From Pseudomonas silvicola (GTDB lineage Bacteria > Pseudomonadota > Gammaproteobacteria > Pseudomonadales > Pseudomonadaceae), in assembly GCF_026651855.1 (NCBI RefSeq), contig NZ_CP093280.1, positions 2,768,001 through 2,832,000 on the forward strand: a stretch of DNA of 64,000 nucleotides. Reading direction: 5' to 3'. The translations under genes and the position numbers were made by a program. The notes under the pieces are model-generated. The model was not told where the DNA came from, ran no database searches, and saw only the letters and a program-made list of their open reading frames with translations. Every line of letters starts with the position of its first letter. The stretch's first letter is position 1. Positions 14,344 to 18,503 of the stretch are shown in pieces.

Positions 14344-14375
14344 TTGTGACAGTCGTTGTGACAGCATTTGTGACA
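14344..14375 (+). repeat. Three TTGTGACA repeats, 12-bp period (putative integrase arm sites, left)
   Basis: Copies at 14344-14351, 14356-14363 and 14368-14375, all in the same orientation with exact 12-base spacing. The same arrangement recurs at the right end of the element. Period, multiplicity and placement fit arm-type binding sites for a lambda-type tyrosine integrase. Confidence 0.7.
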
Positions 14376-14554
14376 ACCCAAGGCCCCAAAAGCCTACACT
14401 TACGGGCTTGGGTGCGAACAACTTCGGAAATCGGCGGGGCGCGTCGCTTCATGCGGTCGCTGAGCTTGAAACGCCTGTTCAACCTTCTGCAATGTTCGCC
14501 GGCCCGTTGAGGGACCTCCGTTATGGTCCCCTATAGAAACCTTGAGTTAGGCCA

Positions 14555-15184
14555 TCAGAGGTCGCCCGCTTTGAGCTTCATGGCCCGCTGAACGGTTGCC
14601 GTACTGACCCCTGTAGCCCTTGAGGTCTCCCGCAGGCCCATGCCCTTGTTCAGACAGTCAAGAATGCGCTGGTGCTTGTCCTGATCAATCCCACGGCCCT
14701 TGTAGGCACCTTGTCCCTGGGCCTTCTTAATGCCATCCATCTGACGACGGCGGCGGTCCTCGTAGTCCTTACGTGCGACCGCTGCGAGCATGTCCAAGAG
14801 CATGTCATTGATGGCTCCAAGCATCCGAGAGGTGAAGGTGTCCAATGCTCCACTTCCCTGCGCCATGAACTGGTGAGAGGTAGGCAAATCAAGCGAGACC
14901 ACACGGACCTCCTTCTCCTTGATGATTCCTCTGAGCTTCTGCCAGTCAGCGTCTGTGAGGCGCGAGAGCCGGTCTACCTGTTCGACTAAAAGGACATCAC
15001 CGGGATGAGCGTCAGACAGCAGCCGGAACAGCTCAGGACGCTTGAGGGTGGCTCCGCTCTCGTTCTCGATGTAGTAGGTGGCTACTCGCTGCCCATGATC
15101 CTCTGCGAAGGTCGTAAGCTGGTCCTTAGCCCGGTGGGCGTCTTGGTCAGTGGTAGAAGCTCGGAGGTAAGCACGGATGAACAT
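14555..15184 (-). CDS. Serine recombinase (resolvase/invertase family)
   Basis: A 209-residue small serine recombinase. The catalytic Ser lies in the N-terminal motif AYLRASTTDQD, and the conserved arginine region is VEQVDRLSRLTDADW. The long E-helix is followed by a C-terminal Hin-type helix-turn-helix (GLRETSRATGVSTATVQRAM) preceded by KGRGIDQDKHQRI. Such enzymes resolve cointegrates or invert segments. It is the leftmost gene of the integrated element, and its upstream region carries three related direct repeats that may be its sites. GC content and codon use are lower than in the flanking core genes. Confidence 0.92.
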   Translation of the reverse strand: MFIRAYLRASTTDQDAHRAKDQLTTFAEDHGQRVATYYIENESGATLKRPELFRLLSDAHPGDVLLVEQVDRLSRLTDADWQKLRGIIKEKEVRVVSLDLPTSHQFMAQGSGALDTFTSRMLGAINDMLLDMLAAVARKDYEDRRRRQMDGIKKAQGQGAYKGRGIDQDKHQRILDCLNKGMGLRETSRATGVSTATVQRAMKLKAGDL

Positions 15185-15199
15185 CGAGAAGGTGTACCA

Positions 15200-15302
15200 T
15201 AGTCGTTAAGGTGTGGTCACTATATGTGTAGTCGTTATGGTGGTCAATGCCTACTAAACAACCACACTCTCTCAGGCATCTTGCCGTAGTCGCTGAGGTG
15301 TA
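15200..15302 (+). repeat. Three degenerate direct repeats upstream of the serine recombinase
   Basis: Copies starting TAGTCG occur at 15200-15220, 15229-15246 and 15287-15302 (TAGTCGTTAAGGTGTGGTCA, TAGTCGTTATGGTGGTCA, TAGTCGCTGAGGTGTA). They begin 16 bases upstream of the recombinase start codon. They could be an operator, resolution subsites, or origin-like iterons. The rest of the 357-base gap (15185-15541) holds no credible gene. Confidence 0.55.
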
Positions 15303-15423
15303 CCCCAAGAACCACGGACGATAAGACTCTTCGAGCCGCCTGTTTACAGGAGGAGAACCACTGCGAACGACCGTCGAACTGTGACCGGCCCGTACGCTTT
15401 TCAAGAACCCATCCGGTGGCGCG

Positions 15424-15467
15424 CATGGGCACGCGATAAGGACTCCATGCGGGCGCGATAAGGCTCA
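15424..15467 (+). repeat. 22-bp imperfect tandem duplication
   Basis: Two adjacent 22-base units share CATG at the start and CGCGATAAGG in the middle (15424-15445 and 15446-15467). They lie in the same non-coding gap of the integrated element. Function unknown. Confidence 0.45.
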
Positions 15468-16126: not shown

Positions 16127-16217
16127 GGTGTGGTCCTGTGAAATCGTTGCGGAGCAGTATAGCCAGCAGTGCAGCGAGGTCACTCAGCACAGCCACCAAG
16201 TAGAACACTGACGACAT
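16095..16217 (-). CDS. Possible 40-residue membrane peptide
   Basis: ATG 16217 opens a 40-residue frame whose first half is strongly hydrophobic (MSSVFYLVAVLSDLAALLAI) followed by a basic tail. It overlaps the start of the adjacent 194-residue gene by 32 bases in another frame. No clear ribosome site is seen, and the IS element begins 35 bases upstream, so it may be a fragment of something lost to the deletion. Confidence 0.25.
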   Translation of the reverse strand: MSSVFYLVAVLSDLAALLAILLRNDFTGPHHGRRKLLDSC

Positions 16218-16316
16218 TCCCAAAGGCTTCGCCCAGAGAGCCACCTTGGCTATGTAGTGGTCTAATGAAACCGGACACCCATTTAGGCGAGAATACTCGC
16301 CACAGAGAGGTGTCCG

Positions 16317-16625
16317 ATGACCAAGCAACGACGTACCTTTACCCCCGAATTCAAACGTGAAGCCGCCAGCCTGGTGCTCGACCAGGGCTACAGCCACATC
16401 GAGGCAGCCCGGTCGCTTGGGCTGGTTGAGTCGGCCTTGCGTCGTTGGGTGAACCAGCTCCAGCAAGAACGTGGCGGCGTCACGCCGACCAGCAAGGCGT
16501 TAACACCTGAGCAGCAAAAAATCCAAGAATTGGAAGCCCGAATCAATCGTCTGGAACGGGAGAAATCGATCCTAAAAAAGGCTACCGCGCTCTTGATGGC
16601 CGAGGAGCACGAGCGCTCGCGTTAG
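16317..16625 (+). CDS. IS3-family transposase OrfA
   Basis: A 102-residue helix-turn-helix protein ([20 protein letters not shown], then [20 protein letters not shown]) ending in a leucine-zipper-like helix ([20 protein letters not shown]). The heptamer A AAA AAG at 16574-16580 lies where a -1 shift would fuse OrfA to OrfB; the -1 frame is open from there into orfB. OrfA alone normally regulates transposition. Confidence 0.93.
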
Positions 16626-16660
16626 TCGATCAGCTTCGCTCCGAGGAGCCGGTTGATCTG

Positions 16661-17479
16661 TTGTGCTCGGTATTTGAAGTCACCCGATCTTGCTACTACG
16701 CATACTGTCGAAAACGCCGATCCCCTGATGCCGAACGGGTGATTTTGCGCAGCCGCGTGAACGAACTGTTTACTCAAAGCCGAAGCGCTGCGGGCAGTAG
16801 AAGCATCATGCTGATGATGAAAGAGGACGGCATGCAAATCGGGCGATTCAAGGTACGTAAGTTGATGCGCGAGATGAACCTGATCAGCAAACAACCGGGC
16901 TCCCATGCCTACAAAAAGGCCACCGTGGAGCGACCTGATATACCGAACGTACTTGATCGAGAGTTCAGCGTGGCATCCCCCAACAAGGTCTGGTGCGGTG
17001 ACATCACGTACGTTTGGGCCGAAGGTCGATGGCACTATCTGGCAGCGGTGATCGATCTTTATGCGCGCCGGGTCGTAGGCTGGGCGTTCTCAGTCAAGCC
17101 TGACGCTGAGCTGGTGATCAAGGCATTGGATATGGCCTATGAGCAGCGTGGCCGGCCTCAGAATGTGCTATTTCACAGCGATCAGGGCAGCCAATACGGC
17201 AGCCGGAGTTTCCGCCAGAGACTATGGAGATACCGCTTCACGCAGAGCATGAGTCGGCGCGGCAACTGCCACGACAACGCGCCGATGGAGCGGCTATTTC
17301 GCAGCCTGAAAACTGAATGGATACCGACGGTGGGCTACATGAGCGCTGCGGTGGCCAAACAAGATATCAGTCGTTTCCTGATGGAGCGGTACAACTGGCG
17401 GCGACCACATCAGTTCAACGACGGCTTGGCGCCTGCCGTTGCCGAGGAAAAACTTAACGCAGTGTCCGGGATCAGTTGA
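16661..17479 (+). CDS. IS3-family transposase OrfB (catalytic part)
   Basis: The DDE retroviral-integrase-like domain is intact: Asp in WCGDITYVW, Asp in [11 protein letters not shown], Glu in [13 protein letters not shown]. It is probably made mainly as an OrfAB fusion by -1 frameshifting upstream, with no strong ribosome site at 16661. No stop or frameshift damage is visible, so the IS may still be active. Confidence 0.92.
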
Positions 17480-18503
17480 CCACTACAGTCTTGGTCAACT
17501 GAGCGACCTCACCTACCCGAGCGCCGGTAATGGCCAAGATGGACAGGCTCCAACGTTCCCACGAGTCCACAGGCATCGAGTTGCAGTGCTGCATGAACGT
17601 AACCACTTGGTCCCGTGTGAACGCCTCACGTTCGCTCTCAGTCCCCTTAGTCAACTTGAGCTTCGCTGTGTATGCCTTAGCGATATGGTCATTATTCACA
17701 GCCCAATCAAACACCGTAGACATCTGTGTGATGAGGTTGTTGACCGTTGAGGGCTTGCGCGAGGTGAGCAACTCAGTGCGGAGGGCAATCATGTCGGCCG
17801 TTGTCGTGGTCGTCATGTCGGTGATGTCGATAGCCTCAAAGGCTGCGCCGATGACCCTGTAGTTACCTTGGAGACTGGACAGCGTGCTTGGCTTCACGTT
17901 GCCTCCGTGTTCCTTCAGGTAGAGCGCTGCCATAGCGTCCCACGTTAAGGGAGTCTTCGAGGGCCTTACAGATAGGGACACGGGCTCGGACGCTTCGGGA
18001 GCTTCAAGGCTCCGCAAGATGCCAAGTAGGGGCTGTGCGTCCCCTCTGAGGCGTTCCTGAGCTTTGTCCATGGTGTCCTTGGCTATCACGGTGCCTCTTT
18101 GCTGGTCCACGTTGAGAGGGACCATAGCGGAAGCCATCGAGAGAGCCTGCGAGATTTCCCCGTAGACCACTGAGTAGGCGTAGAGCGAGTCATCGTCATG
18201 GGCCACCGTTATGCACTCCTCAGCGACCACATACAGGCGCTCCTTGATGGCAGGCCAAGGCAGCTCAGGGTTGTCGAGATGGAACACCTTGAGGGCCTTC
18301 ATGATGTCTTGTGTGGTCAGCATTGCAGCGAGTCGATCCTTGGTCCGTAGGGATAGCGTGAAGTGGCCTGTGAGGGCCCTGCGAGGCCGTAGGCGCAGAT
18401 AGTAGCGTCCATTGCGGGTGTACAGCCAAGGCTTAGCCAGGACGGTTTGTAACAGCCCTTGTGACACCCGTTGTGACAATGGAGTCCGTGTGGTGGTGGT
18501 CAT
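17472..18503 (-). pseudogene. Tyrosine integrase of the element, truncated by the IS
   Basis: ATG 18503 follows a GAGGA site; a GTG at 18536 is possible but less likely. The N-terminal region (LYTRNGRYYLRLRPRRALTG) is like the BLxx-type phage integrases with an early DUF6538-like segment. A SAM-like core-binding domain follows at about residues 180-270 (TWDAMAALYLKEHGG). The catalytic domain stops just after box I (LAITGARVGEVAQLTK). The HxxR box and the nucleophilic Tyr are gone; the final residues VVVN and the stop are read from the IS end. It therefore cannot catalyse excision unless supplied in trans. It lies beside attR, as expected for the element's own integrase. Confidence 0.9.
18447..18478 (+). 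repeat. Three TTGTGACA-type repeats, 12-bp period (putative arm sites, right)
   Basis: Copies at 18447-18454 (TTGTAACA), 18459-18466 and 18471-18478 (both TTGTGACA) have the same orientation and exact 12-base period as the left set. They lie inside the first codons of the integrase, so integrase binding here could also repress its own gene. Confidence 0.7.

Follow-up and report, generated by a model that had tools for sequence, protein, structure and literature searches.

The stretch of DNA considered here, referred to below as the window, comprises 64,000 nucleotides (nt) of the genome of Pseudomonas silvicola (contig NZ_CP093280.1, positions 2,768,001 to 2,832,000) and contains an integrated element of 4286 bp, measured from core start to core start, that sits between the genes earP and efp. 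A preliminary description of this DNA had drawn attention to a triple array of short direct repeats at each end of the element and had suggested that the two arrays look like arm sites of the element's integrase. The features on which the argument depends are listed below by window position.

13136 to 14284, plus strand: earP, encoding the elongation factor P (EF-P) arginine rhamnosyltransferase, the target gene (PF10093, E = 6e-157)
14264 to 14279, plus strand: left attachment (att) core TTTTACCGAAATTGGA, a 16-bp direct repeat, by sequence match
14344 to 14375, plus strand: distal (left) candidate arm array, three copies of TTGTGACA with a 12-bp period, at 14344, 14356 and 14368
16253 to 17487, plus strand: IS3-like insertion sequence (IS), with two frames (16317 to 16625 and 16661 to 17479) and 26-nt inverted repeats
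17488 to 18503, minus strand: 5' part of the integrase gene (int), about 338 codons, encoding the leader, a predicted arm-binding domain, the core-binding domain and the first catalytic arginine
18447 to 18478, plus strand: int-side (right) candidate arm array, TTGTAACA and two copies of TTGTGACA with a 12-bp period, at 18447, 18459 and 18471
18550 to 18565, plus strand: right att core TTTTACCGAAATTGGA, the other 16-bp direct repeat, by sequence match
18618 to 19187, plus strand: efp, encoding elongation factor P, the downstream neighbour of the empty site (PF08207, PF01132, PF09285)

When up to two mismatches are allowed, TTTTACCGAAATTGGA has just two matches in the window, and these are the two cores. 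The core together with the next five bases is present in 51 of 99 genomes (again with at most two mismatches, the genome of P. silvicola being counted through the right end of the element), and in all 20 loci that were read earP, the core and efp follow one another without an insert, the two genes being directly adjacent. Because the core occurs in other genomes and earP adjoins efp in those 20 loci, the core lies at the end of earP and the element has entered there; as judged from the sequence, the left core restores the 3' end of the gene on insertion.

Each end carries three octamers at an exact 12-bp period and in one orientation, all on the plus strand, as had been described, and the offsets of the arrays from the cores are indeed 65 bases (14279 to 14344) and 72 bases (18478 to 18550). 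The right array lies within the first codons of the integrase frame that opens with the ATG at 18503, where it occupies nt 26 to 57, i.e., codons 9 to 19. The preliminary description treated the six sites as matching, which holds without exception for their spacing and for five of the six in sequence, since the sixth (18447 to 18454) is TTGTAACA and differs from TTGTGACA by one mismatch. Its view that the arrays are very unlikely to be accidental is borne out by several counts. The triple pattern, with up to three mismatches, is matched twice in the window, where 0.01 matches would be expected, and a test for any octamer repeated at period 12 found no triples in 100 dinucleotide shuffles of the window. 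The real window yielded three places with period-12 triples, in addition to the left array read in shifted registers; the single matched distant pair among them consists of the left and right arrays. Across the whole 8.65-Mb genome, the two arrays are the sole places with two tandem copies (at most one mismatch), and the reversed control gave none; a chance repeat is ruled out by the shuffles, the pattern count and this genome-wide search. Three further single TTGTGACA octamers in the window (at 23, 29923 and 44855) are at chance level, with 1.68 expected. There was no Rfam match at gathering thresholds between 13500 and 19500 that would point to an RNA element.

The integrase gene of the window is terminated after about 338 codons by the insertion sequence, which we take to belong to the IS3 family, and the remainder of the gene is lost; the encoded protein keeps the first catalytic arginine only and scores below the Pfam cut-off. 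The bases bordering the IS carry no duplicated target, so that the insertion was probably accompanied by an adjacent deletion. A very similar IS3-like element also interrupts the integrase gene of a relative (genome G286, locus L062), near the first catalytic arginine. A search of the genome of P. silvicola for another integrase of this family gave no second close copy, only one further weak catalytic-domain match (E = 7.5e-6), and this, together with the loss of the catalytic end, makes the window element a remnant. Since its integrase is truncated, intact relatives are needed to decide what the arrays do.

Relatives were assembled in two sets. The first consisted of 52 regions around integrase homologues and array hits (with the window included, 50 of 53 had an integrase match), and a core was chosen from repeats of at least 12 bp in 33 elements. 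The second consisted of the best 80 of 106 named loci (77 Pseudomonas, two Stutzerimonas and one gamma proteobacterium) and 12 virus loci, making 92, of which 51 received an automatic core, a number deduced from the pooled set. Pooling gave 82 distinct elements with both ends placed, the window among them, elements without a placed core being omitted. The first integrase codons were compared without gaps to the inside of the far end of each element, and a same-orientation score of at least 13 was reached in 71 of the 82, as compared to 1 of 82 when the far end was reverse-complemented; among the first 33 elements, 23 exceeded all of 100 shuffles of the far end. The check proposed in the preliminary description, a search for the same arrays in relatives with a full-length integrase, therefore came out in its favor, most such relatives with placed ends carrying matched arrays of one orientation at both. 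Some of the elements left out for want of a core (L047, L062, L063 and L089) still have matching copies at the far end; others (L046, L070, L071, L072 and L088) do not.

The arrays of relatives are diverse in motif and period, and the two ends of an element vary together. An end-to-end permutation was run on the 71 of 82 elements whose int-side array was caught by the search pattern, which are not the same 71 as those scoring at least 13. Own ends totalled 1109, as compared to a mean of 736 and a maximum of 827 in 2000 permutations, a gap to which kinship within classes contributes. For motif and period classes with at least two members, far ends of the same class average 11.0 to 17.5, as compared to 5.0 to 11.1 for far ends of other classes, except for two TGTCACCA classes scored against each other. 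This class table is the informative part, and by these sequence comparisons motif and period covary between the two ends. The motif can differ despite a common target: both L061, with TGTTAGAA, and L044, with TGGGACAA and TGTTACAA, lie at the 3' end of what is presumably a tesA-like gene, judging from its translated tail. Within the genus, the three-copy pattern of the window (one mismatch allowed) is found in 10 of 298 genomes, that of P. silvicola included, while the control columns gave 0. In six of the nine other genomes the contig with the array also carries a homologous integrase, at a distance of 2.7 to 12.3 kb, and in G156 the end of one lies at the contig edge. G086 has the coat-like gene described further below with no integrase match within the 20 kb read, and in G087, a one-mismatch match, neither gene was found.

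The array inside int has left its mark on codon usage. Across 88 distinct coding sequences (995 pairs with protein identities of 50-93%), the frequency at which a shared residue is encoded by the identical codon is 0.80 in codons 1-10 and 0.79 in codons 11-20, as compared to 0.32-0.71 in other blocks; for codons 11 to 15 the values are 0.98, 0.91, 0.96, 0.80 and 0.97. At least two spaced octamers occur within the first 90 nt of 72 of the 88 coding sequences, the first octamer starting at nt offset 26 in 60 of these 72, and the copies occupy more than one reading frame in 45 of them. From the synonymous constraint and the placement of copies in different frames we infer that selection acts on the DNA of the array codons and that the peptide is not the thing repeated, which agrees with the dual coding and binding role proposed in the preliminary description. 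A single residue that switches the motif class was also sought. Alignment position 22 is Y in 54 of 55 CA-class sequences and W in all 17 others, but the integrase of the window combines W with the CA motif, which defeats this candidate.

The same integrase family is found in the temperate T7-like phages 3MF5, phTUNSm, phTUNSv and G11 (at least five Pseudomonas records, matching over 98-99% of the query); LUZ100 was not among the best 40 of the 43 records. In 3MF5 and phTUNSm, three copies of TGTTAGAA with an 11-bp period precede int by about 130-160 bp, and the start of int itself carries TGTTAGAA, TGTTAGAA and TGTCACCT with the same period, so that two of the three isolated T7-like phages examined have one triple array before int and another in its first codons. 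The cores of these two phages should lie between the two arrays. Phage 3MF5 has additional scattered copies upstream, and G11 has two copies and a near copy at the end of its record. Four of ten virus records, the ~40-kb IMG/VR contigs G299, G300, G301 and G304, carry same-strand arrays close to each end. As an observation in its own right, the integrase family also serves ~40-kb T7-like phages (L176-L184 from IMG/VR, and NC_054890, PV620261 and OQ622254), and it is possible that such phages are helpers of the small elements.

Intact integrases were aligned for 42 relatives, after exclusion of a frame of 934 residues and of frames that were short, broken or lacked a clear start. They are 447-518 amino acids long and have a tyrosine recombinase catalytic domain with the conserved R, HxxR, H/W and Y; among 43 aligned sequences R329 shows no variation, and conservation is at least 90% in the columns of HSLRH, GH and Y. 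The integrase of L055, an element identical to that of L126 in P. putida HAI-2, matches Phage_integrase (PF00589, E = 7e-16), and its structural model has a mean predicted local distance difference test (pLDDT) value of 77.6 and a predicted template-modelling (TM) score of 0.46. Residues 1-15, which cover most of the stretch encoded by the array, fall below a pLDDT of 50 and are followed by three strands and a helix and then by the core-binding and catalytic parts. The highest-ranking fold matches of the model are DNA-bound lambda Int and the lambda excision complex. The arm-binding domains of lambda and Tn916 have the same order of strands and helix, and the N-terminal part of the model fits such a domain.

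Taken together, these observations argue for a lambda-like tyrosine integrase that recognises two kinds of site, with the arrays as its arm-type sites P and P', and we would put the probability of this reading at roughly 90%. It draws its support from the recurrence of the arrays at both ends of intact relatives, matched end to end. In the excised circle, the distal triple array would be followed by the core and then by the int-side triple array within the opening codons of int. The arrays would be bound by the small N-terminal domain of the integrase and the cores by its catalytic part; in this way the protein would bridge arms and cores into a recombination complex, as lambda Int does, and the arms would position it to exchange strands at the 16-bp core within the 3' end of earP. 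As the leader peptide encoded over most of the array is predicted to be disordered, the DNA there would remain available for binding. With the int-side arm located in the first int codons, integrase bound there should also hinder the transcription of int itself.

Several points weigh against this interpretation. In 10 of the first 33 elements at least one of 100 shuffles reaches the score, and in that set L081 and L090 have no array match and L057 and L085 a weak one. In the pooled set 11 of 82 elements score below 13 (L056, L057, L081, L085, L090, L102, L117, L120, L122, L156 and L161). With the search pattern, no pair of copies is seen at either end of L081, L090 or L102; both ends of L156 and L161 do have copy pairs, which the ungapped match does not pick up. 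The 82 rows are not independent, since many represent close kin or one locus retrieved twice, and among the cores placed automatically some measure only 12-14 bp and may be wrong. Six of the ten virus records, several of them fragments, are without arrays at both ends, the reversed control gives 0-3 matches per virus record when three mismatches are allowed, and vB_PaeM-G11 has one clear copy in its int start. The arm-binding domain is predicted only from the order in which strands and helix follow one another.

Among other explanations, binding of the arrays by a recombination directionality factor of the Xis kind, or by a repressor, instead of the integrase seems improbable to us. Head-to-tail short repeats near att are also typical of Xis-type binding, and although no directionality-factor gene turned up, no search aimed at one was made. 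The arrays nevertheless flank the core on either side, they are shared by ~40-kb phages and small elements of differing cargo, all of which were found through the integrase, and the far-end motif agrees class by class with the motif inside int. That the right array is a mere protein repeat or codon accident, with the left array an unrelated repeat, could be suggested by the window, where the copies share one frame (12 bp being four codons), but we give this almost no credence, given that 45 of 72 coding sequences place their copies in more than one frame, that synonymous sites are constrained and that the far ends match in the same orientation.

It is just as implausible that the matching ends represent a long duplication of the target made on integration. 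Target-gene duplications do reach 130 bp in some relatives, yet the arrays stand apart from the cores and at unequal distances from them, and two unintegrated phage genomes have one array before int and one inside it. Direct repeats at about one helical turn also resemble replication iterons, and operators of a cargo regulator would be a related possibility; the position of the arrays beside att cores at both ends of elements with different genes, and their absence from the rest of the genome of P. silvicola, make either role exceedingly unlikely.

Many of the intact relatives are elements of ~6.4 kb that encode a protein of ~333 amino acids (58 of 144 loci, some of them fetched twice), represented by the following gene.

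L055, 5564 to 6562: gene for the ~333-residue coat-like protein (alignment A3), with homologues in relatives

Pfam, PHROG and NCBIfam gave no match for the protein of L055. Among the 50 PDB matches listed for its model (mean pLDDT 74.4) are phage coat proteins and encapsulins, at E-values of 6e-6 or better and TM-scores of only 0.26-0.39. Neighbors of the gene encode Rha (L055) or Bro-N and, below the cut-off, KilA-N (L066). These elements look like very small phage satellites with a coat gene of their own of the HK97 fold. The window element has the integration module in common with them but not the coat-like gene, and the A3 profile found no match in the genome of P. silvicola in a search run without a positive control. 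Two further genes lie within the window element.

14555 to 15184, minus strand: serine recombinase (resolvase/invertase), cargo or accessory (PF00239, E = 6e-23)
15542 to 16183, minus strand: orphan open reading frame encoding 213 amino acids, no Pfam match

Serine recombinase homologues are present in 16 of 144 loci, some fetched twice, and those of L080 and L084, relatives carrying TGTCACAA arrays, are 57-60% identical to that of the window, from which it may be that this gene is a recurrent partner of such elements. Upstream of it, between 15200 and 15300, are three TAGTCGTTAAGGTG-like 14-mers that are possible binding sites. The orphan frame had no Pfam match at E <= 0.1 and no tblastn match in the 144 loci. 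Elsewhere in the window, eight tRNA-Glu and tRNA-Gly genes are clustered between 37840 and 39134. The assembly (G000) measures 8.65 Mb with a stated contamination of 8.04%, and other listed genomes of the genus reach 7.5 Mb at most.

In the phage lambda system, core sites are flanked on both sides by arm sites. The elements described here resemble it in having arms on both sides of the core, with an N-terminal domain for the arms (predicted in our case) and a catalytic part for the cores. They differ in that the start of int falls in the att region, with the int-side arm inside the coding sequence, in that all copies in an element have one orientation and a period of 10-12, and in the greater length of the integrases. 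Another parallel is IntS of KplE1/HK620, as far as the passages available describe it: int starts at attL, the sites of the integrase and of the directionality factor overlap and repress the int promoter, and the P' sites lie in the promoter region, with P'1 overlapping the -10 box (PMC2951348). The integrase gene starts at att in both cases; unlike in KplE1, the whole array here is in codons 9-19 and not in the promoter. By analogy, we infer self-repression in the integrase family of the window as well.

According to the passages available on mycobacteriophage clusters K and J, Pixie has three arm sites of the same orientation on one side of the core and the arm motifs of cluster K1 vary together with the integrase N-terminus (PMC3203893), and in cluster J arm-like sites overlap the int start codon as an inverted pair, the phage attachment site (attP) lying beyond the 3' end of int (PMC3706429). 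Arm-type sites, triple direct arrays, motif variation linked to the N-terminus and arm-like sites at an int start codon are thus already known; a triple array that forms an attP arm within the opening codons of int, as proposed here, does not appear in those passages (PMC3203893, PMC3706429). Passages of the LUZ100 paper make no mention of arm sites (PMC10134795), and the transfer-messenger RNA (tmRNA) islands carried by jumbo phages, considered as a possible counterpart, differ in target site and gene content in the portions available (PMC12595487). No description of an attP arm wholly within the first int codons, nor of the small ~6.4-kb coat-protein elements, was found in the portions consulted of the open-licence literature, a weak absence since it covers open-licence papers only.

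More tentatively, and at odds of only about one in three, the first int codons could represent a portable specificity cassette, made up of the array, the disordered leader and the arm-binding domain, that T7-like phages, coat-gene mini-elements and cargo islands have in common, the bound integrase both building the complex and blocking its own transcription, with shutoff in proportion to the occupancy of att. For this integrase family, the matched arrays provide a rule for locating arm sites from sequence only, and the natural variants of the motif at matched ends are material for working out the code of arm recognition. The placement of one arm among the first codons predicts that these integrases would regulate themselves from within their own coding sequence.

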